The position numbers and the translations under genes are program-made. From assembly GCF_018310535.1 (NCBI RefSeq), contig NZ_CP074102.1:6510001-6574000 (forward strand): a stretch of DNA of 64,000 bases. The letters are read 5' to 3'. Positions 46,572-59,393 of this stretch are shown piece by piece. Every line of letters begins with the position of its first letter. The first letter of the stretch is position 1. Source of the DNA: Streptomyces mirabilis. GTDB taxonomy: Bacteria; Actinomycetota; Actinomycetes; Streptomycetales; Streptomycetaceae. The notes below the pieces were generated by a model. It was not told the DNA's origin, did not search any database, and worked only from the letters and a program-made list of their open reading frames with translations.

Positions 46572-48233
46572 ATGGACGCGGGAGAGATCAACTCCGGTCA
46601 GGGGCAAGGGATTTCACGTGCGGGGCGGCGGGGCGAGACGCCGGGGGGTGAGCGGCTGGCGGACTGGGCCGACGGCCGGCTCGGCCTCTACGCGCTGGCC
46701 AAGGCCAACATGCGCAAGGTCTTCCCGGACCACTGGTCCTTCATGCTCGGCGAGGTCTGCCTCTACAGCTTCCTGATCCTGATCCTGACCGGCGTCTACC
46801 TCACGCTCTTCTTCGAGCCGAGCGCCTCCGAGGTCGTCTACCACGGCCCGTACGAGCCGCTCAACGGCATCCTCATGACCCGCGCCTACGAGTCCACCCT
46901 CCACATCAGCTTCGAGGTCCGCGGCGGACTCCTGGTCCGGCAGATCCACCATTGGGCGGCGATCGTCTTCCTCGCCGGCATGCTCGTGCACATGATGCGC
47001 GTCTTCTTCACCGGCGCGTTCCGCAAGCCCCGCGAGGTCAACTGGCTGTTCGGCTGGACCCTGTTGATGCTCGGCCTGATCACCGGCCTGACCGGCTACT
47101 CGCTCCCCGACGACCTGCTCTCCGGCACCGGCGTCCGCTTCGCCCAGGGCGCGATCCTGTCGGTCCCGATCGTGGGAACGTACCTCTCCTTCTTCCTCTT
47201 CGGAGGCGAGTTCCCGGGTCACGACATCATTCCGCGCTTCTTCCCGATCCACGTCCTCCTGCTGCCGGGCATCATGCTGGGCCTGGTGGTCGCCCATCTG
47301 ATCCTGGTCTTCTACCACAAGCACACGCAGTACCCGGGACCCGGACGCGACCAGAAGTCCGTCGTCGGGATGCCGTTCATGCCGGTCTACATGGCCAAGG
47401 CGGGCGGGTTCTTCTTCCTCGTCTTCGGGGTGCTGTCGCTGATGGGGGCGATCGCGACCATCAACCCCGTCTGGGCCTTCGGCCCCTACCGGCCGGACCT
47501 GGTGACGACCGGCGCACAGCCCGACTGGTACCTCGGCTTCTCCGAGGGGCTCATCCGGGTGATGCCGGGATGGGAGATCAACGCCTGGGGCCATACCCTC
47601 CAACTGGGTGTGTTCATCCCCTTCTCCCTCTTCCCGCTGATCATGACCGCCATCGCCGTCTACCCGTTCATCGAGGCGTGGATCACCGGGGACAGACGGG
47701 AACACCACATCCTGGACCGGCCGCGCAACGTGCCCACCCGCACCGGGCTCGGCGTCGCCTGGCTGACGCTGTACGGAGTGCTGCTGGTCGGCGGCGGCAA
47801 CGACCTGTGGGCCACCCACTTCCACCTCTCCATCAACGCCATCACCTGGTTCGTACGGGTCTCCTTCTTCGTCGCCCCGGCCCTCGCCTTCGTCGTCACG
47901 CGCCGGATCTGTATGGGACTCCAGCGACGGGACCGCGACAAGGTGCTGCACGGAAGGGAGTCCGGGATCATCCGGATGCTTCCGCACGGCGAGTACGTCG
48001 AGGTGCACGAACCGCTCTCACCGGCGCAGCGGTTCACGCTCACCCAGCACGAGCAGCCTCCGCCCTACGAGGTGGGACCGCTCGTGGACGCGAACGGCGT
48101 CGCCCGCCGGGTCGGCGCCGGCCGCAGACTGCGCGCCCGGCTCGCCCGCGCCATGTACGGGCCCGACACCCAGATTCCGAAGCCGACGCCGGAGGAGTAC
48201 CGGGAACTCACCAGCGGCGATCACCACCACTGA
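46572..48233 (+). CDS. orphan QcrB-like cytochrome b subunit
   Basis: This 553-residue protein matches the cytochrome b subunit of actinobacterial menaquinol:cytochrome c reductase. Haem-ligand histidines are His126 and His140 in QIHHWAAIVFLAGMLVHMM, and His227 and His242 in PIHVLLLPGIMLGLVVAHL (spacing 14 and 15). The quinol-site motif is PDWYLGFSEG. About eight membrane segments and a hydrophilic C-terminal tail are visible. No qcrA, qcrC or oxidase gene adjoins it, so it is probably a second copy. ATG 46572 was chosen behind GGGGGTGG. Its end overlaps the convergent dehydrogenase gene by 26 bp. Confidence 0.9.
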   Translation: MDAGEINSGQGQGISRAGRRGETPGGERLADWADGRLGLYALAKANMRKVFPDHWSFMLGEVCLYSFLILILTGVYLTLFFEPSASEVVYHGPYEPLNGILMTRAYESTLHISFEVRGGLLVRQIHHWAAIVFLAGMLVHMMRVFFTGAFRKPREVNWLFGWTLLMLGLITGLTGYSLPDDLLSGTGVRFAQGAILSVPIVGTYLSFFLFGGEFPGHDIIPRFFPIHVLLLPGIMLGLVVAHLILVFYHKHTQYPGPGRDQKSVVGMPFMPVYMAKAGGFFFLVFGVLSLMGAIATINPVWAFGPYRPDLVTTGAQPDWYLGFSEGLIRVMPGWEINAWGHTLQLGVFIPFSLFPLIMTAIAVYPFIEAWITGDRREHHILDRPRNVPTRTGLGVAWLTLYGVLLVGGGNDLWATHFHLSINAITWFVRVSFFVAPALAFVVTRRICMGLQRRDRDKVLHGRESGIIRMLPHGEYVEVHEPLSPAQRFTLTQHEQPPPYEVGPLVDANGVARRVGAGRRLRARLARAMYGPDTQIPKPTPEEYRELTSGDHHH

Positions 48234-49176
48234 GCACCTCGGCCCGGCACTCGGCCGGGGTGCCCCACGCGGTACGCAGGGCACGGGCCTTGGCCAGCCA
48301 CAGGGACAGGTCGTACTCCGCGGTGTAGCCGATCGCGCCGTGCAGCTGGAGCGCCGTGCGCGCGGTGACGTACGCGGCCTCGCAGGCCGTGACCTTGGCG
48401 GCGGCCACGTCGGCGGGCGCCATCGTCAGAGCCGCGCCGAACAGCAGCGGTCGCGCGAACTCCAGGGCGATCTTCGCGTCGGCGAGGCGATGCTTGACCG
48501 CCTGGAACGAGCCGACGGGGACGCCGAACTGGGTGCGCTGCTTGACGTAGGCGACGGTCCGGTCGAGGAGTGCGAGGCCGACGCCGAGGGCCTGGGCGGC
48601 GGTGGCGAGCCGGGCCCAGCCGAGGGCATGGGCGACGGGAGGGGCGGTGGAGAGCAGTTCACCGCCTGGTGACAGGGGCGTGAGGTGGCGGGCGGGGTCC
48701 AGGGAGGCGCGTACCGGGCCGTGGCCGGGCGCCAGACGCAGTCCGTCGGCGGCCAGGGCGAGGCGGGTGGTCGCCGCGTCGCCGTCCAGCGCGTACGCCC
48801 CGTCGAGGGCCAGCGTGGCCGACGCCTCGCCCGAGGCCAGCGACGGGAGCAGCCGCCCGGCGGGAAGGGGGTCCGCCAGCTCGGCCAGCAGGGCGGCCGC
48901 CGCGACCGTCTCCACCAGCGGCCCGGGCACCGCGTGCCGGCCCAACTCGATGAAGCCCACGGCCAGTTCCACCGGACGCGGGCCCATCCCCTCGTACGCC
49001 TCCGGCACCGCGAGCGCGAACACGCCCGCCTTGGCGATACGGGACCACAGCGCGCGGCCGCCGCCGTGGTCGCCGCGGCTCCAGTCCCGTACGACCGACG
49101 GGGTGTCCGCGGCCGTCAGCATCGCGTCCAGCGAGTCGGCGAACGCCCGCTGCTCGGCGTCGAGGAGGAAGCGCAT
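48208..49176 (-). CDS. acyl-CoA dehydrogenase, short subunit (FadE32/33-like)
   Basis: The 322-residue protein has the ACAD fold: MRFLLDAEQRAFADSLDAML at the N-terminus, GVFALAVPEAYEGMG, and the C-terminal helical domain with KQRTQFGVPVGSFQAVKHRLADAKI and LQLHGAIGYTAEYDLSLWLAKA. The length equals mycobacterial FadE32 (322) and approaches FadE33, short subunits of alpha2-beta2 dehydrogenases in steroid side-chain and ring catabolism. Its ATG overlaps the stop of the 381-residue partner by 1 nt. The 3' end overlaps the cytochrome b gene. The steroid role is inferred from context. Confidence 0.88.
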   Translation of the reverse strand: MRFLLDAEQRAFADSLDAMLTAADTPSVVRDWSRGDHGGGRALWSRIAKAGVFALAVPEAYEGMGPRPVELAVGFIELGRHAVPGPLVETVAAAALLAELADPLPAGRLLPSLASGEASATLALDGAYALDGDAATTRLALAADGLRLAPGHGPVRASLDPARHLTPLSPGGELLSTAPPVAHALGWARLATAAQALGVGLALLDRTVAYVKQRTQFGVPVGSFQAVKHRLADAKIALEFARPLLFGAALTMAPADVAAAKVTACEAAYVTARTALQLHGAIGYTAEYDLSLWLAKARALRTAWGTPAECRAEVLSGGDRRW

Positions 49177-50321
49177 CAGCGGCGGCCCTTCGGGAGGCCG
49201 AGCAGGCGCTCGGCGATGATGTCGCGCTGGATCTCGTTGGTGCCGGCGTAGATCGGACCGGCGAGCGAGAAGACGTACCCCTCGGACCAGTCCGTGTCCG
49301 CCGACTCCCCGTCCGGGCCGAGGAGATCGAGGGCCGTCTCGTGCAGCGCGATGTCGTACTCGGACCAGAAGACCTTGTTCAGGCTGGACTCCGGGCCCAT
49401 GGTCGCGCCGTCGAGGAAGCGGGAGGCATGGGCGTAGGTGAAGAGCTGGTAGGCGCGGGCGCCGATCACCGCGTCGGCCACCCGGTCCCGCAGCGCCGTG
49501 TCCGAGGGGTCGGCGCGGCCGCGCCACAGGGCCACCAGACGGTCCGAGGCGGCGAGGAATCGGCCCGGTGAACGCAGCGTCAGCCCTCGCTCGTTGCCCG
49601 CCGTCGACATGGCGACCCGCCAGCCCCCGCCCGGCTCGCCGATCACGTCCTCGTCCGGGACGAAGACCTCGTCGAGGAAGACCTCGGCGAAGGCCGGTCT
49701 GCCGTCGAGGCGGCCGATGGGGCGCACGGTGACCCCGGGCGCGCGCAGGTCGAACATCAGGTAGGTCAGGCCCTGATGAGGCCTCGGCGTGTCCGGCTCG
49801 CTGCGGAAGAGGCCGAACGCGCGGTCGGCGAAGGCGGCCCGTGACGACCAGGTCTTCTGCCCGCTCAGCAGCCAGCCCCCGTTCGTACGCACCGCACGCG
49901 AGGTGAGCGAGGCCAGGTCGGACCCCGCCTCCGGCTCGGACCACGCCTGCGCCCAGACGACCTCCCCGGTGGCCATGGAGGGCAGGATCCGGGCGCGCTG
50001 TTCCTCCGTGCCGTGGTCGAACAGGGTGGGCGCGAGGAGGTTGATGCCGTTCTGGCCGACCCGGCCCGGCGCGCCCGCCGCGTAGTACTCCTCCTCGAAC
50101 ACCAGCCAGCGCACGATGCCCGCGCCCCGGCCGCCGTACACCTCCGGCCAGGACACCACCGACCAGCGGTCGGCGGCGAGTTCGGCCTCCCACACGCGGT
50201 GTGCCGCGAAGCCCTCCTCGGTCTCCAGGGACCGGAGGGGCGTTTGTGGCACATGGGCGGCGAGCCAGGTCCGGGCCTCGGCGCGGAAGGCCTCGTCGGC
50301 GGGGGAGAGGGTCAGATCCAT
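49176..50321 (-). CDS. acyl-CoA dehydrogenase, long subunit (FadE31-like)
   Basis: The 381-residue ACAD has WAQAWSEPEAGSDLASLTSRAVRTNGGWLLSGQKTWSS (FAD and substrate region) and the C-terminal IYAGTNEIQRDIIAERLLGLP. It begins MDLTLSPADEAFRAEARTWLAAHVP. The length is close to mycobacterial FadE31 (377). With the adjacent short subunit it probably forms a heterotetramer acting on a steroid-derived CoA thioester. The ATG at 50321 follows GGGAAGG. It is divergent from ipdF, with a KstR2-like operator between them. Confidence 0.88.
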   Translation of the reverse strand: MDLTLSPADEAFRAEARTWLAAHVPQTPLRSLETEEGFAAHRVWEAELAADRWSVVSWPEVYGGRGAGIVRWLVFEEEYYAAGAPGRVGQNGINLLAPTLFDHGTEEQRARILPSMATGEVVWAQAWSEPEAGSDLASLTSRAVRTNGGWLLSGQKTWSSRAAFADRAFGLFRSEPDTPRPHQGLTYLMFDLRAPGVTVRPIGRLDGRPAFAEVFLDEVFVPDEDVIGEPGGGWRVAMSTAGNERGLTLRSPGRFLAASDRLVALWRGRADPSDTALRDRVADAVIGARAYQLFTYAHASRFLDGATMGPESSLNKVFWSEYDIALHETALDLLGPDGESADTDWSEGYVFSLAGPIYAGTNEIQRDIIAERLLGLPKGRR

Positions 50322-50334
50322 CGGCAGCACCTTC

Positions 50335-50354
50335 CCTAACAAGTGTTTGGTAGG
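50335..50354. promoter_or_regulatory. KstR2-like operator, ipdF/fadE divergent promoter
   Basis: On the minus strand this reads CCTACCAAACACTTGTTAGG. Its centre matches the mycobacterial KstR2 consensus AnCAAGnnCTTGnT except for one G to A change. It shares 16 of 20 positions with the site at 56472-56491. A TAGCGT -10 (50356-50361) follows immediately and lies 6 nt before the ipdF ATG, so binding would block initiation. Confidence 0.75.
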
Positions 50355-50367
50355 TTAGCGTGGAGGT

Positions 50368-51159
50368 ATGAGCGACGTCGAGAGTCCGGCGTACGTCACC
50401 GGGCACGGGCTGCTGACCGGGCGCACCGCCGTCATCACCGCCGCCGCGGGCGCGGGCATCGGCGGGGCGACGGCGCGCAGGTTCCTGGAGGAGGGGGCGC
50501 GGGTGGTCATCAGTGACGCCCACGTCCGCCGCCTCAAGGAGAGCGAAGAGGCCCTCGCCGCGGAGTTCGGCGCGGCGAACGTCGCCTCGCTGCCGTGCGA
50601 CGTGACGGACGAGCAGCAGGTGGAAGCCCTGTTCACGCTGGCGGGAGACCTTCACGACGGCCTGGACATCGTCGTCAACAACGCGGGCCTCGGTGGCACT
50701 TGTGCCCTCGTCGACATGACCGACGAGCAGTGGTCGCGGGTGCTGGACGTGACGCTGAACGGCACGTTCCGGTGCACCCGGGCCGCCCTGCGCCGTTTCC
50801 GGGACCAGGGCGGCGGCGGAGTCGTCGTCAACAACGCCTCCGTCATCGGCTGGCGCGCCCAGACCGGTCAGGCGCACTACGCCGCCGCCAAGGCGGGGGT
50901 CATGGCGCTCACCCGGTGCGCGGCCGTCGAGGCCGCCGAGTACGGGGTGCGCGTCAACGCGGTCTCACCGAGTCTCGCCATGCACCCGCACCTGGTGAAG
51001 GTGACCACGCCCGAGCTGCTGGAGGAACTGACGGGCCGCGAGGCCTTCGGCCGCTACGCCGAGCCCTGGGAGGTGGCCAACGTGATCGTGTTCCTGGCGT
51101 CCGGCTACTCCTCGTACATGACCGGCGAAGTCGTCTCCGTCAGCAGCCAACATGCGTAG
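50368..51159 (+). CDS. ipdF: IpdF-like short-chain dehydrogenase (steroid C/D ring catabolism)
   Basis: The 263-residue SDR has the cofactor motif VITAAAGAGIGGATARRF, LDIVVNNAGLGG, and the catalytic Ser and Tyr-Lys in VVVNNASVIGWRAQ and HYAAAKAGVMALTRCAAVEAAEYGVRVNAVSPS. It closely resembles mycobacterial IpdF (Rv3559c, 262 residues), including AEPWEVANVIVFLAS and the C-terminal TGEVVSVSSQHA. IpdF oxidizes the 5-hydroxyl of the HIP-CoA-derived intermediate. GGAGG is only 1 nt from the ATG, and the -10 lies 6 nt upstream, so a leaderless start is likely. kstR2 follows in the same direction. Confidence 0.88.
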   Translation: MSDVESPAYVTGHGLLTGRTAVITAAAGAGIGGATARRFLEEGARVVISDAHVRRLKESEEALAAEFGAANVASLPCDVTDEQQVEALFTLAGDLHDGLDIVVNNAGLGGTCALVDMTDEQWSRVLDVTLNGTFRCTRAALRRFRDQGGGGVVVNNASVIGWRAQTGQAHYAAAKAGVMALTRCAAVEAAEYGVRVNAVSPSLAMHPHLVKVTTPELLEELTGREAFGRYAEPWEVANVIVFLASGYSSYMTGEVVSVSSQHA

Positions 51160-51186
51160 GGCGCCGTCGGCCGGCACCCCTGGGAC

Positions 51187-51199
51187 CACAATGGAACCG
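51187..51199 (+). promoter_or_regulatory. -10 box with leaderless start of kstR2
   Basis: CACAAT (51187-51192) lies 6 nt before the GTG at 51199, identical in sequence to the hisI -10. No ribosome binding site is visible, and no KstR2-like operator overlaps it, so kstR2 may be read from its own promoter besides that of ipdF. Confidence 0.45.
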
Positions 51200-51810
51200 T
51201 GCCTACCAAGAAGAAGCCCCAGGTGACCGCCACCCCCGAGCGGCGCCGCGAACTCCTCGACACCGCCGCGGAGGTCTTCGCCGAGCAGGGCTACAACGCC
51301 ACCACCGTACGCAAGATCGCGGACGAGGCCGGGATGCTCGCGGGCAGCCTCTACTACCACTTCGACTCCAAGGAATCGATGCTGGAGGAGATCCTGCGGA
51401 CCTTCCTCGACGAGCTCTGGGAGGGCTACGACGCCGTCCTGGACGCCGAACTCGATCCGCGCCGGACGCTGGAGGCCCTGGTCACCGAGTCCTTCCGGGA
51501 GATCGACCGGCACCGTGCCGCCGTCGCCATCTACCAGAAGGAGTCCCGGCACCTCGCCGCCCAGCAGCGCTTCGCCTTCCTCGCCGACTCGCAGCGCAAC
51601 TTCGAGAAGGCGTGGCTGAGCACGCTGGAGCGCGGCGTGGCCGCCGAGGTCTTCCGGGCCGACCTCGACATCCGGCTCACCTACCGCTTCGTGCGCGACA
51701 CGGTGTGGGTCGCCGCGTCCTGGTACCGGCCCGGCGGACAGCACAGCCCCGAGGAGATCGCCCGGCAGTACCTGTCGATGGTGCTGGACGGCATCTCCGT
51801 ACGCGAATAG
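51199..51810 (+). CDS. kstR2: TetR-family repressor KstR2
   Basis: The 203-residue protein has a TetR DNA-binding domain (RRRELLDTAAEVFAEQGYNATTVRKIADEAGMLAGSLYYHFDSKESMLEEIL, recognition helix about residues 46-66) and a ligand domain strongly resembling mycobacterial KstR2 (Rv3557c), notably FRADLDIRLTYRFVRDTVWVAASWYRPGG near the C-terminus. KstR2 represses the HIP regulon and is relieved by HIP-CoA. The gene sits between ipdF and fadA6 as in Mycobacterium, and matching operators exist in the cluster. Confidence 0.9.
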   Translation: MPTKKKPQVTATPERRRELLDTAAEVFAEQGYNATTVRKIADEAGMLAGSLYYHFDSKESMLEEILRTFLDELWEGYDAVLDAELDPRRTLEALVTESFREIDRHRAAVAIYQKESRHLAAQQRFAFLADSQRNFEKAWLSTLERGVAAEVFRADLDIRLTYRFVRDTVWVAASWYRPGGQHSPEEIARQYLSMVLDGISVRE

Positions 51811-51838
51811 CCCATGTCTGCGATAGCCCATGTCTGTG
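51807..51838 (+). repeat. 16-bp tandem duplication between kstR2 and fadA6
   Basis: ATAGCCCATGTCTGCG (51807-51822) is repeated as ATAGCCCATGTCTGTG (51823-51838). The first copy includes the kstR2 stop codon. It looks like a simple slippage duplication that lengthened the spacer to 39 bp. Confidence 0.8.
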
Positions 51839-51849
51839 AGGGAGTTGTC

Positions 51850-53007
51850 ATGGCCGAGGCCTACATCGTCGAAGCGGTCCGTACGCCCGTCGGGCGGCGC
51901 GGGGGAGGTCTGAGCGGCGTCCACCCGGCCGACCTCGGCGCGCATGTCCTCAAGGCGCTGGTCGAGCGCTCCGGAGTGGACCCGGCCGCCGTCGAGGACG
52001 TCGTCTTCGGCTGCCTGGACACCGTGGGACCGCAGGCCGGGGACATCGCCCGCACCTGCTGGCTGGCGGCAGGGCTCCCCGAGGAGGTGCCGGGCGTCAC
52101 CGTCGACCGGCAGTGCGGCTCCTCCCAGCAGGCCGTGCACTTCGCCGCCCAGGGCGTCCTGTCCGGCACCCAGGACCTGGTGGTCGCGGGCGGCGTGCAG
52201 AACATGAGCCAGATTCCCATCGCCTTCGCCTCCCGCCAGGCCGCCGAACCCCTCGGCCTCACCGAAGGCCCCTTCGCCGGCAGCGAGGGCTGGCGGGCGC
52301 GCTACGGCGACCGGCCCGTCAACCAGTTCGCCGGCGCCGAGATGATCGCCGCCAAGTGGGGCATCAGCCGCCCCGACCAGGAGGAGTTCGCCCTCCGCTC
52401 GCACCGGCGGGCGATCCGCGCCATCGACGAGGGCCGCTTCGCCCGCGAGACCGTGGCCTACGGCGAGGTCACCGTCGACGAGGGCCCGCGCCGGGACACC
52501 TCACTGGAGAAGATGGCGGGCCTGAAGCCGGTCGTCGAGGGCGGCACCATCACCGCCGCCTGCTCCTCCCAGGTCTCCGACGGCGCCGCCGCGATGCTGC
52601 TCGCCTCCGAGCGGGCGGTACGGGAGCACGGGCTGACCCCGCGCGCCCGCGTGCACCACCTCTCCGTACGCGGCGAGGACCCCATCCGCATGCTGTCCGC
52701 GCCCATCCCGGCCACCGCGTACGCCCTGAAGAAGACCGGCATGTCCCTCGACGCCATCGACCTCGTCGAGATCAACGAGGCCTTCGCCCCGGTCGTCCTC
52801 GCCTGGCTCAAGGAGACCGGCGCCGACCCGGAGAAGGTCAACGTCAACGGCGGCGCCATCGCTCTGGGGCATCCGCTGGGGGCGACGGGCGTGAAACTGA
52901 TGACGACGCTCCTGCACGAACTGGAGCGCACCGGCGGCCGGTTCGGCCTCCAGACGATGTGCGAGGGCGGCGGCCAGGCGAACGTGACGATCATCGAACG
53001 GCTCTGA
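51850..53007 (+). CDS. fadA6: acetyl-CoA acetyltransferase FadA6-like thiolase
   Basis: The 385-residue thiolase starts MAEAYIVEAVRTPVGRRGGGLSGVHPADLGAHVL. The nucleophile is Cys89 in VTVDRQCGSSQQAVH; His341 in GGAIALGHPLGATG and Cys371 in QTMCEGGGQANV complete the active site. In Mycobacterium FadA6 cleaves the beta-keto product of C/D ring degradation (MOODA-CoA). The ATG at 51850 has GAGGGAG upstream. Its 3' end overlaps the convergent ipdC gene by 17 bp. Confidence 0.92.
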   Translation: MAEAYIVEAVRTPVGRRGGGLSGVHPADLGAHVLKALVERSGVDPAAVEDVVFGCLDTVGPQAGDIARTCWLAAGLPEEVPGVTVDRQCGSSQQAVHFAAQGVLSGTQDLVVAGGVQNMSQIPIAFASRQAAEPLGLTEGPFAGSEGWRARYGDRPVNQFAGAEMIAAKWGISRPDQEEFALRSHRRAIRAIDEGRFARETVAYGEVTVDEGPRRDTSLEKMAGLKPVVEGGTITAACSSQVSDGAAAMLLASERAVREHGLTPRARVHHLSVRGEDPIRMLSAPIPATAYALKKTGMSLDAIDLVEINEAFAPVVLAWLKETGADPEKVNVNGGAIALGHPLGATGVKLMTTLLHELERTGGRFGLQTMCEGGGQANVTIIERL

Positions 53008-54046
53008 GACCCAGCGCGCCGAGAGTCTCGTCCGCCTGTGCCATCACCCGCTCCACCAGCTCCTTGCACGACGGCAGATCCTCGATCACCCCCGCGACCT
53101 GCCCCGACGCCATCACCCCCAGGTCCGTACGCCCGTCCACCATCGACGCCTTCAGGAGCATCGGAGTGTTCGCGGCGAGCAGCACCTGGCTCCAGGTCAG
53201 CTCCTTGCCGTGCCTCATGGCGAGACCGTCGCGGACCATCCGCGGCCAGGAGAGCCCGGACATCCTCCGGAACCGGGCGGCCCGGCGGACGGCCCCTGCG
53301 AGGGCCCTCGCACGGCCGGACCTCTCCAAGAAGTCGACGAAGTCCGTGCGCAGCATGCGATGGGGGAGGCCGTCCACGGCCGAGGTGACCGTGACGTCCC
53401 TGACCGTGGCCGCCAGGTACTTCGCCTTCACCGCGGACGGGACCGTCGAGTCCGAGGTGAGCAGGAAACGGGTGCCCATGGCGATGCCCGCCGCCCCGTA
53501 CGCCAGCGCCGCGACCAGCCCCCGCCCGTCGTGGAAACCGCCCGCCGCGACCACCGGGATGTCCACCGCGTCCACCACCTGCGGCAGCAGCACCGTCGTC
53601 GCGACCTCGCCGGTGTGGCCGCCGCCCTCTCCGCCCTGCACGATCACCGCGTCCGCGCCCCAGGCGGCCACCTTCTCGGCGTGCCGGCGTGCCCCGACGG
53701 AGGGGACGACGACCACGCCCGCCTCCTTCAGCTCGGCGATCAGCTCGCGGGAGGGCGCGAGGGCGAAGGACGCGACCCGCACCCCCTCCTCGACGATGAT
53801 CCGCACCCGCTCGCCCGCGTCCCCGGCGTCGGCACGCAGATTCACGCCGAACGGCGCGTCCGTACGGGACTTGACCTCGCGTATGGCCTCTCTCAGATGG
53901 TCGAGGGTCATCGTCGCGGAGGCCAGGATGCCCAGCGCCCCCGCGTTCGCCGTGGCGGAGACCAGGCGGGGTCCGGCCACCCACCCCATACCGGTCTGCA
54001 CGATGGGGTGACGGACACCTACGAGGCGGGTGAGCGCGGTCTCCAT
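52991..54046 (-). CDS. ipdC: IpdC-like FMN-dependent nitronate monooxygenase-family protein
   Basis: The 351-residue barrel belongs to the 2-nitropropane dioxygenase/NMO family: LVGVRHPIVQTGMGWVAGPRLVSATANAGALGILAS at the N-terminus, GADAVIVQGGEGGGHTG with the FMN-phosphate and histidine region, and AGGFHDGRGLVAALAYGAAGIAMGTRFL. The position next to ipdB and ipdA matches IpdC (Rv3553), an NMO-like reductase required for C/D ring catabolism. The ATG overlaps the ipdB stop by 1 nt. Confidence 0.9.
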   Translation of the reverse strand: METALTRLVGVRHPIVQTGMGWVAGPRLVSATANAGALGILASATMTLDHLREAIREVKSRTDAPFGVNLRADAGDAGERVRIIVEEGVRVASFALAPSRELIAELKEAGVVVVPSVGARRHAEKVAAWGADAVIVQGGEGGGHTGEVATTVLLPQVVDAVDIPVVAAGGFHDGRGLVAALAYGAAGIAMGTRFLLTSDSTVPSAVKAKYLAATVRDVTVTSAVDGLPHRMLRTDFVDFLERSGRARALAGAVRRAARFRRMSGLSWPRMVRDGLAMRHGKELTWSQVLLAANTPMLLKASMVDGRTDLGVMASGQVAGVIEDLPSCKELVERVMAQADETLGALGLRAVR

Positions 54047-54816
54047 CAGCTCCTGACCTCTCGGTCCCGGGTGCCGCCCGGATCGATGACTTCGCGGATC
54101 AGTCCCAGCTCCTGGGGCGTCGGTTCACGGGTGCGGGGCACCTCGTCGGGGACCGACAGCCGAAAGCCCGTCGCCTCCCGCACCTGCTCCACCGTGACGC
54201 CCGGGTGCAGCGAGGCGAGGCGCATCGAGTGGTCGGGGGTGGCGAAGTCGAAGACGCCGAGGTCGCTCACCACGCGCGGCACGCGGTGGAAGCGGGTGGC
54301 GCTCGGGCCCGCGGCGGCGGCACGGTCGTACCCCACCCCGCACACCATGTCGACCCGCTCGACGAAGACGCGCGGCGAGTGCCTGGGAACCCAGTAACTG
54401 GTCGGGTTGTTCAGGGTGTTGACCGGCGCGCCGCGCACGCCGAGGAGCTGACGCGTGGGCCTGGACCAGTCACCGATGCAGGAGATGTTCTGGTTGCCGA
54501 AGCGGTCGAGCTGGCTCGCGCCCATCATCACGTGCCGACGTCCGCCGGTGACCATGGTCAGGTGCTGCCGGTACGGCAGCCAGCCCTCCGGGGTGCCGTC
54601 GAGACCGACGAGCATCGCCTCGCCGTCGGTCAGCAGCAGATCGGGGGAGAAGGTGCGCTTGGCGAGACGGGCGCCGATGGAGGGGATGGGGCCCATGGGG
54701 CTGGCGAGCACCTCGCCGTTGTCCCGCCAGGCCTCGGCGCAGGCGATCACGCAGTACTCGGCGCGGGTGACCCCGGGCGCGGGGGCGCCGGGGGCGGGTA
54801 CGGATGCGGGGTTCAT
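54046..54816 (-). CDS. ipdB: IpdB, beta subunit of the COCHEA-CoA ring-C hydrolase
   Basis: The 256-residue class I CoA-transferase-like subunit has RAEYCVIACAEAWRDNGEVLASPMGPIPSIGARLAKRTFSPDLLLTDGEA, VMMGASQLDRFGNQNISCIGDW and the C-terminus TPQELGLIREVIDPGGTRDREVRS, very like mycobacterial IpdB (Rv3552). IpdAB opens the last steroid ring hydrolytically and is not a true CoA-transferase. The ATG overlaps the ipdA stop by 4 bp. A short Pro/Ala-rich N-terminal segment (NPASVPAPGAPAPG) is extra. Confidence 0.92.
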   Translation of the reverse strand: MNPASVPAPGAPAPGVTRAEYCVIACAEAWRDNGEVLASPMGPIPSIGARLAKRTFSPDLLLTDGEAMLVGLDGTPEGWLPYRQHLTMVTGGRRHVMMGASQLDRFGNQNISCIGDWSRPTRQLLGVRGAPVNTLNNPTSYWVPRHSPRVFVERVDMVCGVGYDRAAAAGPSATRFHRVPRVVSDLGVFDFATPDHSMRLASLHPGVTVEQVREATGFRLSVPDEVPRTREPTPQELGLIREVIDPGGTRDREVRS

Positions 54817-55676
54817 CGCTGCTCCTCGTGCCAGGCCCGTACGGCGGACTGGTAGGCCCGCTCGTCGCCGGCGAGGAAGCGCGCGGCGAACTCGGCGTAC
54901 GGCGTGGTGGCGTACAGCTTCTGGAAGGGCTCGTCGCGTCCGTGGTCGGGGGCGCAGGACGTGAAGTGCGCGCCGTTCGGAGTCTCGACGACGCCCGTCA
55001 CGCTCGACCGCTTGAGCAGCAGGGTCTGCGGGGCGGCCTCCTTGGTGAGCTCCGCCGTGTCGACCACACGCTCGCACGAGACGTACGCGGCGTCGGCCGC
55101 CTCGCAGAACAGGTCGTCGAAGTACGGGTCCGGGCCCAGATACTGGCCGTTGCCCAGGCGGTCGGCGCGGTTCATGTGGACCAGGGCCGCGTCCAGGCGC
55201 AGGGCGGGCATGGCGACGAGCTCCTCCCGTACCCCCGAGGAGGCATCGGCGTACGGCGAAGTGACCGTGCGCAGGCCGGGGTTGACCCGCATCACGTCCG
55301 AGCCGAGCCCGGCCCGGACAGGGAGGAAGGGCAGGCGGTTCGCGGCGGCGTGCAGCCCCCACATGAACATCGCCTCGTCGACCTCCATCAGCTCGAACGC
55401 CCCGCGCTCGCGCGCCGCCCGGTAGTGCGGTTCGAGCGGGATCGAGTCGAGGGTGGTGAAGGCGGTGACGAGCCTTCGGATCCGGCCCGCGGCGGCGAGC
55501 AGGCCGACGTCCGGGCCGCCGTACGACACCACGGTGAGATCGGTGATCTTGGTGTGGAGCAGTGCTCTCACCAGGGCCATCGGCTTGCGGCGCGAGCCCC
55601 AGCCGCCGATGCCGAGAGTCATCCCGCTGCGGAGCCGGGAGACCACCTCGTCGGTGGTCATCGTCTTGTCGCTCAC
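54813..55676 (-). CDS. ipdA: IpdA, alpha subunit of the COCHEA-CoA ring-C hydrolase
   Basis: The 287-residue protein contains RSGMTLGIGGWGSRRKPMALVRALL (CoA-binding glycine region), LTVVSYGGPDVGLLAAAGRI, EVDEAMFMWGLHAAANRLPFLPVRAGLGSDV and DPYFDDLFCEAADAAYVSCERVV, matching mycobacterial IpdA (Rv3551) over its full length. With IpdB it forms the heterotetramer that cleaves ring C. The GTG start overlaps the echA20 stop by 4 bp, and its own stop overlaps ipdB. Confidence 0.92.
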   Translation of the reverse strand: MSDKTMTTDEVVSRLRSGMTLGIGGWGSRRKPMALVRALLHTKITDLTVVSYGGPDVGLLAAAGRIRRLVTAFTTLDSIPLEPHYRAARERGAFELMEVDEAMFMWGLHAAANRLPFLPVRAGLGSDVMRVNPGLRTVTSPYADASSGVREELVAMPALRLDAALVHMNRADRLGNGQYLGPDPYFDDLFCEAADAAYVSCERVVDTAELTKEAAPQTLLLKRSSVTGVVETPNGAHFTSCAPDHGRDEPFQKLYATTPYAEFAARFLAGDERAYQSAVRAWHEEQR

Positions 55677-56437
55677 CTGTCGACCCCCTCCTTCCCGAAG
55701 GTGTCGCGGACACGGTCGGCGACCCCGCCGAGGTTCGCCTCGAAGGTGAAGCCCTGCTCGAATCGGTAGCTGCGGCGCACGTCCACGGGGTCGATGCCGT
55801 TCAGCGCGGCCTTCGCGAGCCGGATCAGCTCGCCGTCCTTGGCGGCGATCTCACGCGCCAGCTCCAGCGCGGCGCCCAGGAGTTCCCCGCGCGGCACGAC
55901 CCGCCACACCGAGCCGTGCGCGTGCAGCTCGGCGGCGGTCGCCGTGCGCGAGGTGTAGTACAGCGCGCGCACCAGGTGGCCCGGGACCAGGCGGGCCAGA
56001 TGCGTGGCCGCGCCGAGGGCGCCGCGGTCCAGCTCGGGCAGGCCGAAGGTGGCGTCCTCGCTCGCCACGATCGCGTCCGCGTTCCCCACCAGCCCGATCC
56101 CGCCGCCCAGACAGAAGCCGTGCACCGCCGCGACGACGGGGACCTCGCACTCGTAGACCGCGGCGAAGGCCTCGAAACAGCCGCGGTTCGCCCCTATGAG
56201 CGCGCGATGTCCTCCGCTGTCCCTGGTCTCGCGCTGCATCTCCTTGATGTCCACGCCCGCGTTGAAACCGCGCCCCTCGGCCGTCAGCACGACGCACCGG
56301 ACACCGGGATCGCGGCCCGCCGCGCGCAGGGCGCCGGCCAGGTCGAACCAGCCGCGCACCGGCAGCGCGTTCACCGGCGGGAAGTCGACCGTGACGACGG
56401 AAATCCCCTTTTCCGGGGACGAGGTGGAGACACCCAT
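55673..56437 (-). CDS. echA20: EchA20-like crotonase (ring-D hydrolase)
   Basis: The 254-residue crotonase-fold protein has the oxyanion-hole segments CVVLTAEGRGFNAGVDIKEM and AAVHGFCLGGGIGLVGNADAIVAS, then FGLPELDRGALGAATHLARLVP. In Mycobacterium EchA20 (Rv3550) hydrolyses the D ring before IpdAB acts. It is the first gene of the echA20-ipdA-ipdB-ipdC operon, all linked by 1-4 bp overlaps. It is divergent from an SDR gene across a KstR2-like operator. Confidence 0.9.
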   Translation of the reverse strand: MGVSTSSPEKGISVVTVDFPPVNALPVRGWFDLAGALRAAGRDPGVRCVVLTAEGRGFNAGVDIKEMQRETRDSGGHRALIGANRGCFEAFAAVYECEVPVVAAVHGFCLGGGIGLVGNADAIVASEDATFGLPELDRGALGAATHLARLVPGHLVRALYYTSRTATAAELHAHGSVWRVVPRGELLGAALELAREIAAKDGELIRLAKAALNGIDPVDVRRSYRFEQGFTFEANLGGVADRVRDTFGKEGVDR

Positions 56438-56471
56438 GGACGCATCAGCTACCTTTCCACCTCAGGACCAT

Positions 56472-56491
56472 TCCACCAAACGTTTGTTAGG
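56472..56491. promoter_or_regulatory. KstR2-like operator, echA20/SDR divergent promoter
   Basis: TCCACCAAACGTTTGTTAGG contains the perfect palindrome CAAACGTTTG. Compared with the KstR2 consensus AnCAAGnnCTTGnT it has two symmetric changes (AnCAAAnnTTTGnT). It matches the 50335-50354 site at 16 of 20 positions and lies in the 99-bp region between the two operons. Confidence 0.75.
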
Positions 56492-56536
56492 CGCACTCTC
56501 GAAGCTAGCAGTGAATGCATCCGGGCGGGAGGCCCT

Positions 56537-57301
56537 GTGGACAACCTGGATCTCGGCGGCAGGACCGTCGTCGTCACGGGCGGCACCCGTGGGGTGGGGG
56601 CCGGGATAGCGCGGGCGTTCGTCGAGGCGGGCGCGGACGTGGTGGTCTGTGCCCGCAGACCCCCCGACGTGCCGCTGGAGGGAACGGAGTTCGTGTCCGT
56701 GGACCTCCGCGACCCGGCCGCCGTGCACGCCTTCTTCGCCGCGCTGCCCCGGCTGGACGTGCTGGTGAACAACGCGGGCGGCGCGCCCTACCGTCCACTG
56801 ACGGAGGCGGACGCCGAGCGCCACGCGCGCGTGATCGAGCTGAACCTCATCGTGCCGCTGACCGCCTCGCTCGCCGCGTACGAGCACCTCAGACGGGCGC
56901 GGGGATCGATCGTGATGATCGGCAGCGTGAGCGGGGCGCGGCCGTCGCCCGGGTCGGCGGCGTACGGGGCGGCCAAGGCGGGCCTTGCGAACCTGGCCCG
57001 TTCGATGGCCGTCGAATGGGCTCCCGACGTCCGGGTCAACACCCTCGTCGTCGGCATGGTCCGCACCGAACTCTCCCATCTGCACTACGGCGGCGAGGAC
57101 GGCATCGCCGCCGTCTCCCGCACCGTCCCGCTGGGCCGCCTCGCCGACCCGTCCGACATCGGCGGGGCCGCGGTCTTCCTCGCCTCGGACGCGGCGAGGT
57201 ACATCAGCGGGGCCTCGCTGCTCGTCCACGGCGGCGGCGAGCGGCCCGCCTTCCTGGACGCGGCGACCGCCAACAAGGCCGACACGTCGGACAGGCCCTA
57301 G
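56537..57301 (+). CDS. short-chain dehydrogenase (Rv3549c-like)
   Basis: The 254-residue SDR has VVVTGGTRGVGAGIARAF, LDVLVNNAGGAPYRPL, the catalytic SIVMIGSVSG serine and YGAAKAGLANLARSMAVEWAPDVRVNTLVVGMV with Tyr-X3-Lys. The length is close to Rv3549c (259), the SDR divergent from echA20 in Mycobacterium, whose substrate is not established. The GTG at 56537 follows GGGAGG. It is 10 bp upstream of a second SDR gene. Confidence 0.87.
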   Translation: MDNLDLGGRTVVVTGGTRGVGAGIARAFVEAGADVVVCARRPPDVPLEGTEFVSVDLRDPAAVHAFFAALPRLDVLVNNAGGAPYRPLTEADAERHARVIELNLIVPLTASLAAYEHLRRARGSIVMIGSVSGARPSPGSAAYGAAKAGLANLARSMAVEWAPDVRVNTLVVGMVRTELSHLHYGGEDGIAAVSRTVPLGRLADPSDIGGAAVFLASDAARYISGASLLVHGGGERPAFLDAATANKADTSDRP

Positions 57302-57311
57302 GAGGACTGAG

Positions 57312-58229
57312 ATGAGTGGACCGCTGCTGTGCGAGGGGCGGGTCGTGATCGTCACGGGCGCCGGGCGCGGACTCGGCCGCGCGCACGCGCTCGCGTACGC
57401 CGCCGAGGGGGCGCGGGTCGTCGTGAACGACCTCGGGGTGGGCCTCGACGGCACGCCCGGCCCGGACAGCCCGGCCGCGCGGGTCGTGGAGGAGATCCGG
57501 GCGGCGGGCGGGCAAGCGGTGGCCCACGGTGGCGACATCGCCACCACCGACGGCGCCGCCTCCCTCGTACGTACTGCGCTGGAGACCTACGGGCGCCTGG
57601 ACACCCTGGTCAACAACGCGGGGTTCCTGCGCGACCGGATGCTCGTCAATCTCGACGAGGACGACTGGGACGCTGTACTGCGCGTCCACCTCAAGGGCCA
57701 CTTCCTGCCGCTGAAGCACGCCGCGGCGCACTGGCGGTCGCAGGCGAAGGAAGGCCGCACACCCCGGGCCAGGGTCGTCAACACCAGTAGCGGGGCAGGC
57801 CTGTTGGGTTCGGTCGGACAGGGCAACTACAGTGCCGCCAAGGCCGGGATCATCGGGCTGACCCTGGTCGCCGCGGCCGAACTGGGCCGCTACGGCGTCC
57901 AGGTCAACGCGATCGCCCCCGCGGCCCGCACCCGGATGACCGAACGCACCTTCGCGGACACCATGGCGGCTCCCGGCGCCGACTCCTTCGACGCGATGGC
58001 CCCCGAGAACGTCTCCCCCCTCGTCGTCTGGCTCGGCGCGAGCGCGAGCACCGGAGTCACGGGCCGCGTCTTCGAGACCGAGGGGGGCCGCATCACCGTC
58101 ATGGAGGGCTGGCGCCCGGGCCCCACCGCGGACAAGGGCGCCCGCTGGACCCCGTCCGAGGCCGGCGACACGGCCCTGAAACTGTTGGCGGAGGCGGAGG
58201 TTCCGGGGGCGGTGTACGGGGCGGAGTAG
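57312..58229 (+). CDS. short-chain dehydrogenase, HSD17B4-like (Rv3548c-like)
   Basis: The 305-residue SDR shows VVIVTGAGRGLGRAHALAYAAEGARVVVNDLGVGLDG, typical of the 17-beta-HSD4/multifunctional-enzyme type SDRs, then LDTLVNNAGFLRDRMLVNL, VVNTSSGAGLLGSVGQGNYSAAKAGIIGLTLVAAAELGRYGVQVNAIAPAARTRM, and a C-terminal EGWRPGPTADKGARWTPSE segment. The length equals that of Rv3548c (304) within one residue. The ATG at 57312 follows GGAGGA. It closes the KstR2-type cluster. Confidence 0.87.
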   Translation: MSGPLLCEGRVVIVTGAGRGLGRAHALAYAAEGARVVVNDLGVGLDGTPGPDSPAARVVEEIRAAGGQAVAHGGDIATTDGAASLVRTALETYGRLDTLVNNAGFLRDRMLVNLDEDDWDAVLRVHLKGHFLPLKHAAAHWRSQAKEGRTPRARVVNTSSGAGLLGSVGQGNYSAAKAGIIGLTLVAAAELGRYGVQVNAIAPAARTRMTERTFADTMAAPGADSFDAMAPENVSPLVVWLGASASTGVTGRVFETEGGRITVMEGWRPGPTADKGARWTPSEAGDTALKLLAEAEVPGAVYGAE

Positions 58230-58296: not shown

Positions 58297-59331
58297 CTAC
58301 GGGCCGGCGGAGTCCAGCCGCGCCAGCGCGCTCGTGGCCCGGTCGCGGATCACGGGGTCGGTCGCGCGGGTGAGGGTGTGCAGGATCGGCAGGCCGTGGG
58401 GGTTGCCGAGGCGGCCCAGTACGTCCGCGCCGAAGGCCTGGCGGAGGGGGTCGGGGACGGCGCACCACTGGACCGCCGCCCGGAACGTCTCCTCGTCGCC
58501 GCGCAGGCCCAGTGCCGTCGCCGCCTCGGTCCAGTCGTCGTTGTCGGGGTCGGCGGGGCGCAGGGCGCGGGCGGCCAGTTCGGCGGCGGGCGCGGCGATG
58601 CCGAGGGCGGATTCGAGGAGGGTCGCTATCGCGGCGTGGCCCGTCTGCTGGTCGTCGCTCGCGACGGGATCCCCGGCCGGGCCGAGGAGTTGGACCTCGA
58701 CGGTGATGCCGCCGTCCTCCGGGTAGCGGTGGGTGACGGAGGGATGGCCCGGGCCCCAGGTCTCTTCCAGGCCCGCGCGCACTTCGGTCTCCACGTCGAC
58801 GGTGAGCCGGCGGTGGGCCTCGGCGAGCGCCGCCGACCGCGCCCGCGCTCCGCGCCGCAGGAGGGCGCGTACACAGCCGGGCGAGCCACGGCGGGCGGCC
58901 GCGACGAGCGGGGGCTCACCGGTCGGGCCCGGGCGGTCGGGGTCCGCGCCCGCCGCGAGGAGCTCCGTCACCACCGCGACCCGTCCCAGCCGCACCGCCC
59001 ACGTCAGCGCCGTGAACCCGAACTCCTCCACCGTGTCCGGCGCGGCCCCGGCCGCCAGCAGGGCACGTACGACCTCCGTGTGCCCACCGCACGCCGCCCC
59101 GCACAGCGGCGCGTCCGTGCCCTGGCTGAGCCGGTCGGGCGCGGCCCCGGTCGCCAGCAGCAGTCGTACGACGCCGGGGCGGTCGCTCACCGCCGCCAGA
59201 TACAGCGCCGTCTGGCCGTCCTCGTCCACCGCGTCCGGGCTCACACCGGAGCGCAGCAGCCGTACCACCGCGTCCTCGTCACCCTCGTGCACAGCCGTGA
59301 AGAGGTGTGCCGCGGGGTCGTTCGTGCTCAT
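58297..59331 (-). CDS. ankyrin-repeat protein with HEAT-like C-terminus
   Basis: The 344-residue protein has about four ankyrin repeats at residues 6-150, for example HLFTAVHEGDEDAVVRLLRSGVSPDAVDEDGQTALYLAA, VVRLLLATGAAPDRLSQGTDAPLCGAACGG and VVRALLAAGAAPDTVEEFGFTALTWAV. The second half has an unassigned segment followed by PILHTLTRATDPVIRDRATSALARLD, resembling one HEAT repeat. No catalytic motif or signal peptide is seen, so it is probably a cytoplasmic protein-binding scaffold. Confidence 0.88.
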   Translation of the reverse strand: MSTNDPAAHLFTAVHEGDEDAVVRLLRSGVSPDAVDEDGQTALYLAAVSDRPGVVRLLLATGAAPDRLSQGTDAPLCGAACGGHTEVVRALLAAGAAPDTVEEFGFTALTWAVRLGRVAVVTELLAAGADPDRPGPTGEPPLVAAARRGSPGCVRALLRRGARARSAALAEAHRRLTVDVETEVRAGLEETWGPGHPSVTHRYPEDGGITVEVQLLGPAGDPVASDDQQTGHAAIATLLESALGIAAPAAELAARALRPADPDNDDWTEAATALGLRGDEETFRAAVQWCAVPDPLRQAFGADVLGRLGNPHGLPILHTLTRATDPVIRDRATSALARLDSAGP

Positions 59332-59393
59332 CCTTCGACCCTCGCTCGCCAAGGACACGAGAGGCAAAGTCTTTTGGGGTGTTGTGTCTCACC

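Follow-up and report, generated by a model that had tools for sequence, protein, structure and literature searches.

A KstR2-type gene cluster, probably for steroid C/D-ring degradation, in Streptomyces mirabilis, with candidate front-end genes at separate loci

The stretch of DNA analysed here (the window, 64,000 nucleotides) spans positions 6510001-6574000 of contig C1 in the 9.62 Mb genome of Streptomyces mirabilis, labelled G000 in our comparison set, in which G and L numbers denote genomes and loci. At 48208-58229 of the window lie 11 intact open reading frames (ORFs) arranged and oriented as in the mycobacterial KstR2 cluster, which serves the degradation of hexahydroindane-propionate (HIP), that is, of steroid rings C and D (Table 1). 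The arrangement is that of the KstR2 regulon table in the available part of Crowe 2017 (PMC5380842), inverted and minus fadE30, fadD3, fadE33 and fdxB. An original prediction, made from the sequence alone, had described a KstR2-type HIP cluster with mycobacterial gene order, with a FadE31/FadE32-sized dehydrogenase pair at one end and these four genes missing from the window. Every gene that it named is present as an intact ORF, the four absences are borne out, and the dehydrogenase pair has its counterparts in FadE31 and FadE32 of a full cluster in the non-Streptomyces genome G108.

The protein comparisons agree with this assignment. The best matches of IpdA in the PDB are 6co6, 6coj and 6con (best E-value 1.8e-99), IpdB matches the same group of entries, and KstR2 matches 2ibd, itself named merely as a possible regulator, as well as 4w97 and 4w1u (about 1.7e-57), both named KstR2. 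The best matches of all three proteins thus fall within the HIP families; best matches outside these families, which would have refuted the prediction, did not occur. The matches also rule out chance ORFs or ordinary coenzyme A (CoA)-transferases; the other CoA-transferase matches of the genome sit outside the cluster. Where the sequences align, 6coj and 6co6 are identical except for a single glutamate-to-alanine change; we take this glutamate to be catalytic, and the window IpdA has a glutamate at the corresponding position, the E of VDEAMF. EchA20, FadA6 and IpdF score above the equivalog cut-offs of NCBIfam models that are generically named, and which presumably correspond to the Mycobacterium tuberculosis genes echA20 (NF005925), fadA6 (NF005865) and ipdF (NF005880); the relatives of EchA20 in the PDB are general crotonases. 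The window IpdC shares 64-70% identity with the IpdC proteins of the non-Streptomyces clusters L125, L129-L131, L133, L135, L137, L138 and L141.

Table 1. Genes and candidate operator sites of the cluster, with positions counted from the first nucleotide of the window.
Feature	Position	Strand	Supporting evidence
FadE32-like acyl-CoA dehydrogenase, beta-type subunit	48208..49176	-	46% to G108 FadE32; NF050027 (IpdE2) 152 bits, under cut-off 450
FadE31-like acyl-CoA dehydrogenase	49176..50321	-	61% to G108 FadE31, 38% to FadE30; among FadE31s in tree
Candidate KstR2 operator I, TAACAAGTGTTTGGT	50337..50351	+	Between FadE31-like gene and ipdF; perfect genome-wide match
ipdF, short-chain dehydrogenase	50368..51159	+	NF005880 452 bits, cut-off 336
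kstR2, TetR-family repressor	51199..51810	+	PDB 2ibd 6e-66; 4w97 1.6e-57
fadA6, thiolase	51850..53007	+	NF005865 706 bits, cut-off 591
ipdC, flavin mononucleotide reductase, NMO/FabK-like fold	52991..54046	-	PF03060 2.9e-88
ipdB, beta subunit of ring-cleaving hydrolase	54046..54816	-	PDB 6co6_B 7.3e-87
ipdA, alpha subunit of ring-cleaving hydrolase	54813..55676	-	PDB 6co6/6coj/6con; glutamate replaced in 6coj kept
echA20, crotonase for ring D	55673..56437	-	NF005925 407 bits, cut-off 260
Candidate KstR2 operator II, TAACAAACGTTTGGT	56475..56489	-	Between echA20 and SDR1; second perfect genome-wide match
SDR1, short-chain dehydrogenase (Rv3549c position)	56537..57301	+	PF13561 5.9e-47; position conserved
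SDR2, short-chain dehydrogenase (Rv3548c position)	57312..58229	+	PF00106 5.1e-43; position conserved

The cluster is widely conserved among named loci. A scan of genome contigs returned at least 594 pattern matches, of which at least 572 encode a relative, and 80 loci were kept and all examined, 79 of them labelled Streptomyces and one 'Actinobacteria bacterium'. Among the matches listed, the named records closest by IpdA, all three at 97%, are those of Streptomyces olivochromogenes, S. diastatochromogenes and Streptomyces sp. NBC_01549. In 79 of the 80 loci the genes that were found follow the window order, the exception being L115 with a displaced kstR2, and this agreement, together with the published regulon table, bears out the predicted gene order. 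All eleven genes are present at 50% identity or more in 51 loci, while the others are cut by the ends of contigs or loci or lack a gene: kstR2 is missing in L113 and L119, and SDR1 in L088, L092, L095, L108 and L120. Some loci carry insertions between ipdC and fadA6, and FadE30 stands beside ipdF in L075, L096, L101 and L114. In a search of relatives, IpdA was found in 84 of 150 genomes. Three Streptomyces loci (L096, L111 and L114) have HsaA- or KshB-like genes near the cluster, so a minority may possess a whole steroid pathway. As for the immediate neighbours in the window, a cytochrome b gene (PF13631/PF00033; 46533-48233, plus strand) directly adjoins the cluster, has a homologue in 29 of the 80 named loci and shows no evident functional link to it, and an ankyrin-repeat protein gene (58297-59367, minus strand) follows on the other side.

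Both divergent promoters of the cluster carry candidate KstR2 operators. The palindrome TAACAARYGTTTGKT has just two perfect matches in the genome, at window positions 50337 and 56475, between the FadE31-like gene and ipdF and between echA20 and SDR1, respectively; allowing two mismatches adds three more, namely the other strand of the second site, C1:5710037 and C2:484577. A CAA-N4-TTG palindrome occupies site I in all 66 loci that could be examined for that site, and site II in 70 of the 86 that could be examined there. These counts were drawn from 100 loci (L042-L141), some of them overlapping, and the loci outside them have one flanking gene missing, a same-orientation gene pair or a gap of more than 1500 bases. 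Some clusters that contain FadE30 also have sites of the KstR2 type, for example AGCAAGTGCTTGCT: G108 and G148 have them at each of the two corresponding promoters, G135 at a single one. We take the mycobacterial KstR2 consensus to be AnCAAGnnCTTGnT; a loose scan of the window with CAAGNNCTTG was uninformative. Judged from these motifs, KstR2 would be expected to bind both palindromes of the window.

Homologues of two of the genes missing from the window, fadD3 and fadE30, lie outside the cluster at 4.75-4.79 Mb. This second locus, 1.8 Mb from the window cluster, encodes a FadE30-like dehydrogenase (C1:4755349-4756533) and, 33 kb away, a FadD3-family ligase (C1:4788731-4790326). The FadE30 of G108 matches C1:4755478-4756530 with 62% identity over query residues 42-386 (57% over 391 positions), against about 42% or less for the next-closest family members in the compared loci, and in a tree the locus-2 protein joins the in-cluster FadE30s in one clade (support 0.97). 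The FadD3-family model matches the ligase at 4788755-4790311 with 797 bits (cut-off 657), and this FadD3 forms a clade with the in-cluster FadD3 of G012 and G023, two full-pathway Streptomyces (support 1.0). Adjoining the ligase is a lipid-transfer-protein thiolase (PDB 6ok1, 1.5e-100), which we take to be Ltp2. The locus further holds an alpha/beta acyl-CoA dehydrogenase pair, whose beta subunit matches PDB 6wy8, Tcur3481 (3.4e-25), as well as a short-chain dehydrogenase, an alcohol dehydrogenase, a DUF35/ChsH2-C protein and a TetR regulator with weak PDB matches, the best being EthR. A simply incomplete pathway is ruled out by the FadD3 and FadE30 homologues, and, as far as homology goes, they bear out the suggestion that the pathway might be completed elsewhere in the genome, to which a side-chain operon can be added. 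In G092, of the same order and another family, FadE30 lies inside the ipd cluster and an Ltp2/FadD3 pair sits apart from it, at 10.16 Mb; the split arrangement is thus not confined to Streptomyces.

The side-chain operon forms a third locus (4338138-4342914), with an acyl-CoA dehydrogenase pair, a full-length ChsH2 comprising a dehydratase region, a zinc ribbon and an OB domain, and a lipid-transfer-protein thiolase (672 bits; PRK07855 cut-off 469). These components make it an igr-like operon. A ChsH1-like stretch was judged by eye in an ORF on which Pfam is silent. The palindrome CTRACGGNNNGTCAG, which is not enriched in the window, has 19 exact occurrences in the genome: nine between 4748557 and 4820355 (about 72 kb, locus 2), one that starts 53 bp ahead of the first locus-3 ORF, one 22 bp before another DUF35/thiolase pair at 7.474 Mb, and eight scattered. 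The shared palindrome suggests common regulation of loci 2 and 3, distinct from that of the window cluster, and C1:4748557-4820355 may be a large regulon of its own, covering genes of the short-chain dehydrogenase, acyl-CoA dehydrogenase and thiolase families as well as three of the amidohydrolase family.

Across the genus, the parts of this split set occur together. We compared 74 Streptomyces genomes (G000-G072 and G089; same-genus relatives within G073-G088, and G090, were set aside), and searched six non-Streptomyces genomes alongside, outside the 74 (G092, G108, G116, G118, G135 and G148). The incomplete drafts G001 (79% complete; rpoB piece short, 939 bases) and G050 (82%) stayed in the set as IpdA-negative genomes. 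IpdA is present in 55 of the 74. FadD3 exceeds its cut-off in 52 of these 55, against one of the 19 IpdA-negative genomes, and the corresponding counts are 54 and one for FadE30 (E<=1e-80), 53 and none for the locus-2 Ltp2, and 54 and one for the locus-3 ChsH2; the single IpdA-negative genome with positives is the draft G001. Concordance with IpdA therefore reaches 72 of 74 genomes for FadE30, Ltp2 and ChsH2 and 70 of 74 for FadD3. Control families show no such association (HsaC-like 12/55 vs 2/19, IpdE2-like 26/55 vs 10/19, any KshA_C 12/55 vs 4/19). On an rpoB tree of 75 tips, including G092, Fitch reconstruction places 13 changes, each either a loss or a gain, for IpdA, 14 for FadD3 and 13 for FadE30, mostly on the same branches. 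Two-state simulations, 3000 runs each, never reached the observed concordance (maximum 62 vs 72 for FadE30 and 59 vs 70 for FadD3), nor did a further 3000 with the FadE30 rates (maximum 58 vs 72 for both Ltp2 and ChsH2). By coordinates, seven of the 55 IpdA-positive genomes have FadE30 only near ipdA, 45 have it only elsewhere or on a different contig, two have it in both places and one lacks it; 'near' extends to 52 kb in G023, and for G040, G066, G057 and G005 the 'elsewhere' copy was compared with locus 2 for synteny.

The hallmarks of the 9,10-seco route through rings A and B follow another pattern. In the S. mirabilis genome, KshA (PF19298) has no match at E<=1e-10 and HsaC none at E<=1e-20, and on these two hallmarks the full 9,10-seco pathway was rejected for S. 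mirabilis. The predicted C/D-ring cluster is accordingly narrower than the term 'steroid degradation' suggests, and several natural substrates are candidates. Among the 74 Streptomyces, KshA matches above 250 bits occur in three (G012, G023 and G070), all of which also have an HsaC-like match at 46-50% identity; nine more IpdA-positive genomes have weaker HsaC-like matches (31-45%) with no KshA above 250 bits. That strong KshA and HsaC-like matches coincide in just three of the 55 IpdA-positive Streptomyces, and that the gene content of the cluster varies among loci, could be taken to mean that the set is the decaying remainder of a formerly complete steroid pathway, devoid of present function; the intact ORFs, the conserved candidate operators and a presence and absence that is concerted and not piecemeal make this highly improbable.

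We favour the reading that the window holds an intact KstR2-type cluster for HIP-type acids whose front end is encoded in trans, the acids most likely being taken up preformed, and we give this reading a probability of roughly one half. Since neither KshA nor HsaC was found, it is simplest to suppose that HIP-type acids are taken up preformed, and these would probably be fragments released by other steroid degraders. For bile-acid degraders, transient extracellular steroid intermediates and possible cross-feeding are described in the available part of PMC8399759. With the order of steps following the accessible portions of Crowe 2017 (PMC5380842) and of PMC8708139, the locus-2 FadD3-family ligase would activate the HIP-type acid, and the FadE30-like dehydrogenase, with some beta partner, would begin the beta-oxidation that removes the C4 propionyl chain. 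Where a C17-type side chain is present, the igr-like locus 3 and the second Ltp2/DUF35 pair beside FadD3 may remove it. IpdF and IpdC, EchA20 (ring D), IpdAB (ring C), FadA6 and FadE31/32 would then open rings D and C and complete the breakdown, and KstR2 would repress both divergent window promoters until a CoA-activated intermediate forms. The enzyme activities in S. mirabilis, the substrate and its uptake are all read here from sequence.

Several observations weigh against this reading. It assumes that free HIP is a nutrient for Streptomyces. IpdE2/FadE33 has no match at E<=1e-50 in the S. mirabilis genome and only one of 80 genomes reaches the model cut-off, so the model is narrow; the locus-2 beta subunit scores 153 bits against the IpdE2 cut-off of 450. 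The deeper nodes of the FadD3 tree are weakly supported (0.19-0.24). Individual genomes break the co-occurrence: G020 has IpdA and lacks FadD3, Ltp2 and ChsH2, G008 lacks FadD3 and Ltp2, FadD3 of G012 falls just under the cut-off (649.6 of 657), G032 lacks FadE30, and the FadE30 match is partial in G020, G024, G046 and G055. The rpoB tree represents one gene, and under a fuller model of shared history the co-occurrence test could lose force. As to regulation, loci 2 and 3 have a different palindrome and the window operator was not found in them, so the parts are not one regulon; the KstR2-type pattern is unmatched in the clusters of G092 and G102 and at the echA20/SDR promoter of G135, and the site-II palindrome is missing in 16 of the 86 loci examined.

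The side-chain modules exceed what plain HIP would need, which leaves room for a non-9,10-seco route or a secosteroid diet. We entertain, tentatively, a steroid-like catabolic route that most sampled Streptomyces would run from three loci (side-chain, HIP-activation and C/D-ring modules), free of KshA and HsaC, in which the HIP skeleton would be reached through non-9,10-seco A/B chemistry or would come with a diet of secosteroids or other hydrindanes. In its more specific form, this would be a complete steroid or secosteroid degradation that arrives at HIP without 9,10-seco chemistry, by A/B-ring enzymes that are not homologues of KshA or HsaC and are possibly encoded in locus 2. In its favour are the near-perfect co-occurrence of the igr-like side-chain and C/D-ring modules, an association unnecessary for scavenging plain HIP, the dense candidate operators of locus 2 (nine of the 19 exact CTRACGGNNNGTCAG sites over the genes listed above) and the same palindrome ahead of the first ORF of the igr-like operon. 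We nevertheless consider it rather unlikely, as no ring-A/B enzyme was identified, although kstD was not searched, and our results assign no steroid role to any of the three amidohydrolase-family genes. It is unlikely, too, that the natural substrate is a non-steroid hydrindane acid, such as a bicyclic terpenoid or polyketide, with the C/D enzymes shared because the bicycle is alike: KshA and HsaC are indeed unmatched in S. mirabilis though the gene set is found in 55 of 74 sampled Streptomyces, but it is accompanied by a side-chain aldolase system of the C17 type and by a ligase that groups with in-cluster FadD3s, as steroid skeletons predict. A coronafacic-acid-like or vitamin D-like substrate was also considered and left unsupported, as were HIP derivatives that keep the C17 side chain, referred to as HIDP, a term with no occurrence in the papers listed by a literature search.

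Among known systems, the closest likeness is the KstR2 regulon of M. tuberculosis (Rv3548c-Rv3564) and Rhodococcus jostii RHA1, for which the available part of PMC5380842 gives ipdA, ipdB, ipdC, echA20, fadA6, kstR2, ipdF, two short-chain dehydrogenases and FadE31/32-like proteins with matching order and orientation. Palindromes of the KstR2 type in divergent promoters are a further shared trait, represented in the window by candidate sites. Unlike those systems, S. mirabilis has its fadD3 and fadE30 homologues at a separate locus, fadE33 was not found, fdxB was not seen in the window, and the genome has no KshA or HsaC match. A split cluster with fadD3 outside the C/D-ring genes is described for Saccharopolyspora hirsuta in the accessible part of PMC8708139, in an organism presented there as a full cholesterol degrader, whereas two A/B-ring hallmarks were not found here. 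Locus 3 resembles the igr operon in having two acyl-CoA dehydrogenases, a full-length ChsH2 and a lipid-transfer-protein thiolase, and differs in that its gene order departs from that of igr and its host genome is without KshA and HsaC matches. We take the igr operon to consist of ChsE1-ChsE2, ChsH1-ChsH2 and Ltp2.

What these Streptomyces carry is a known kind of pathway in a split variant, with its front end encoded in trans. In the available portion of Bergstrand 2016 (PMC4810484), 55 of 57 Streptomyces are listed as without steroid pathways, and a 1977 report on HIP metabolism by Streptomyces rubescens is known from a reference title in PMC5380842. In the parts available of PMC5380842, PMC6678751, PMC4810484, PMC8708139, PMC8399759, PMC9782250, PMC3161971 and PMC7807495, no ipd genes are assigned to Streptomyces, nor are any genes assigned to the HIP metabolism of S. 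rubescens. A survey keyed to the whole steroid pathway could overlook a C/D-ring set carried by 55 of 74 sampled Streptomyces. Our results suggest that most sampled Streptomyces eat steroid leftovers or reach the C/D rings by another route; if the set is functional, Streptomyces would be a large hidden soil sink for steroid fragments, or would hold another route to them.

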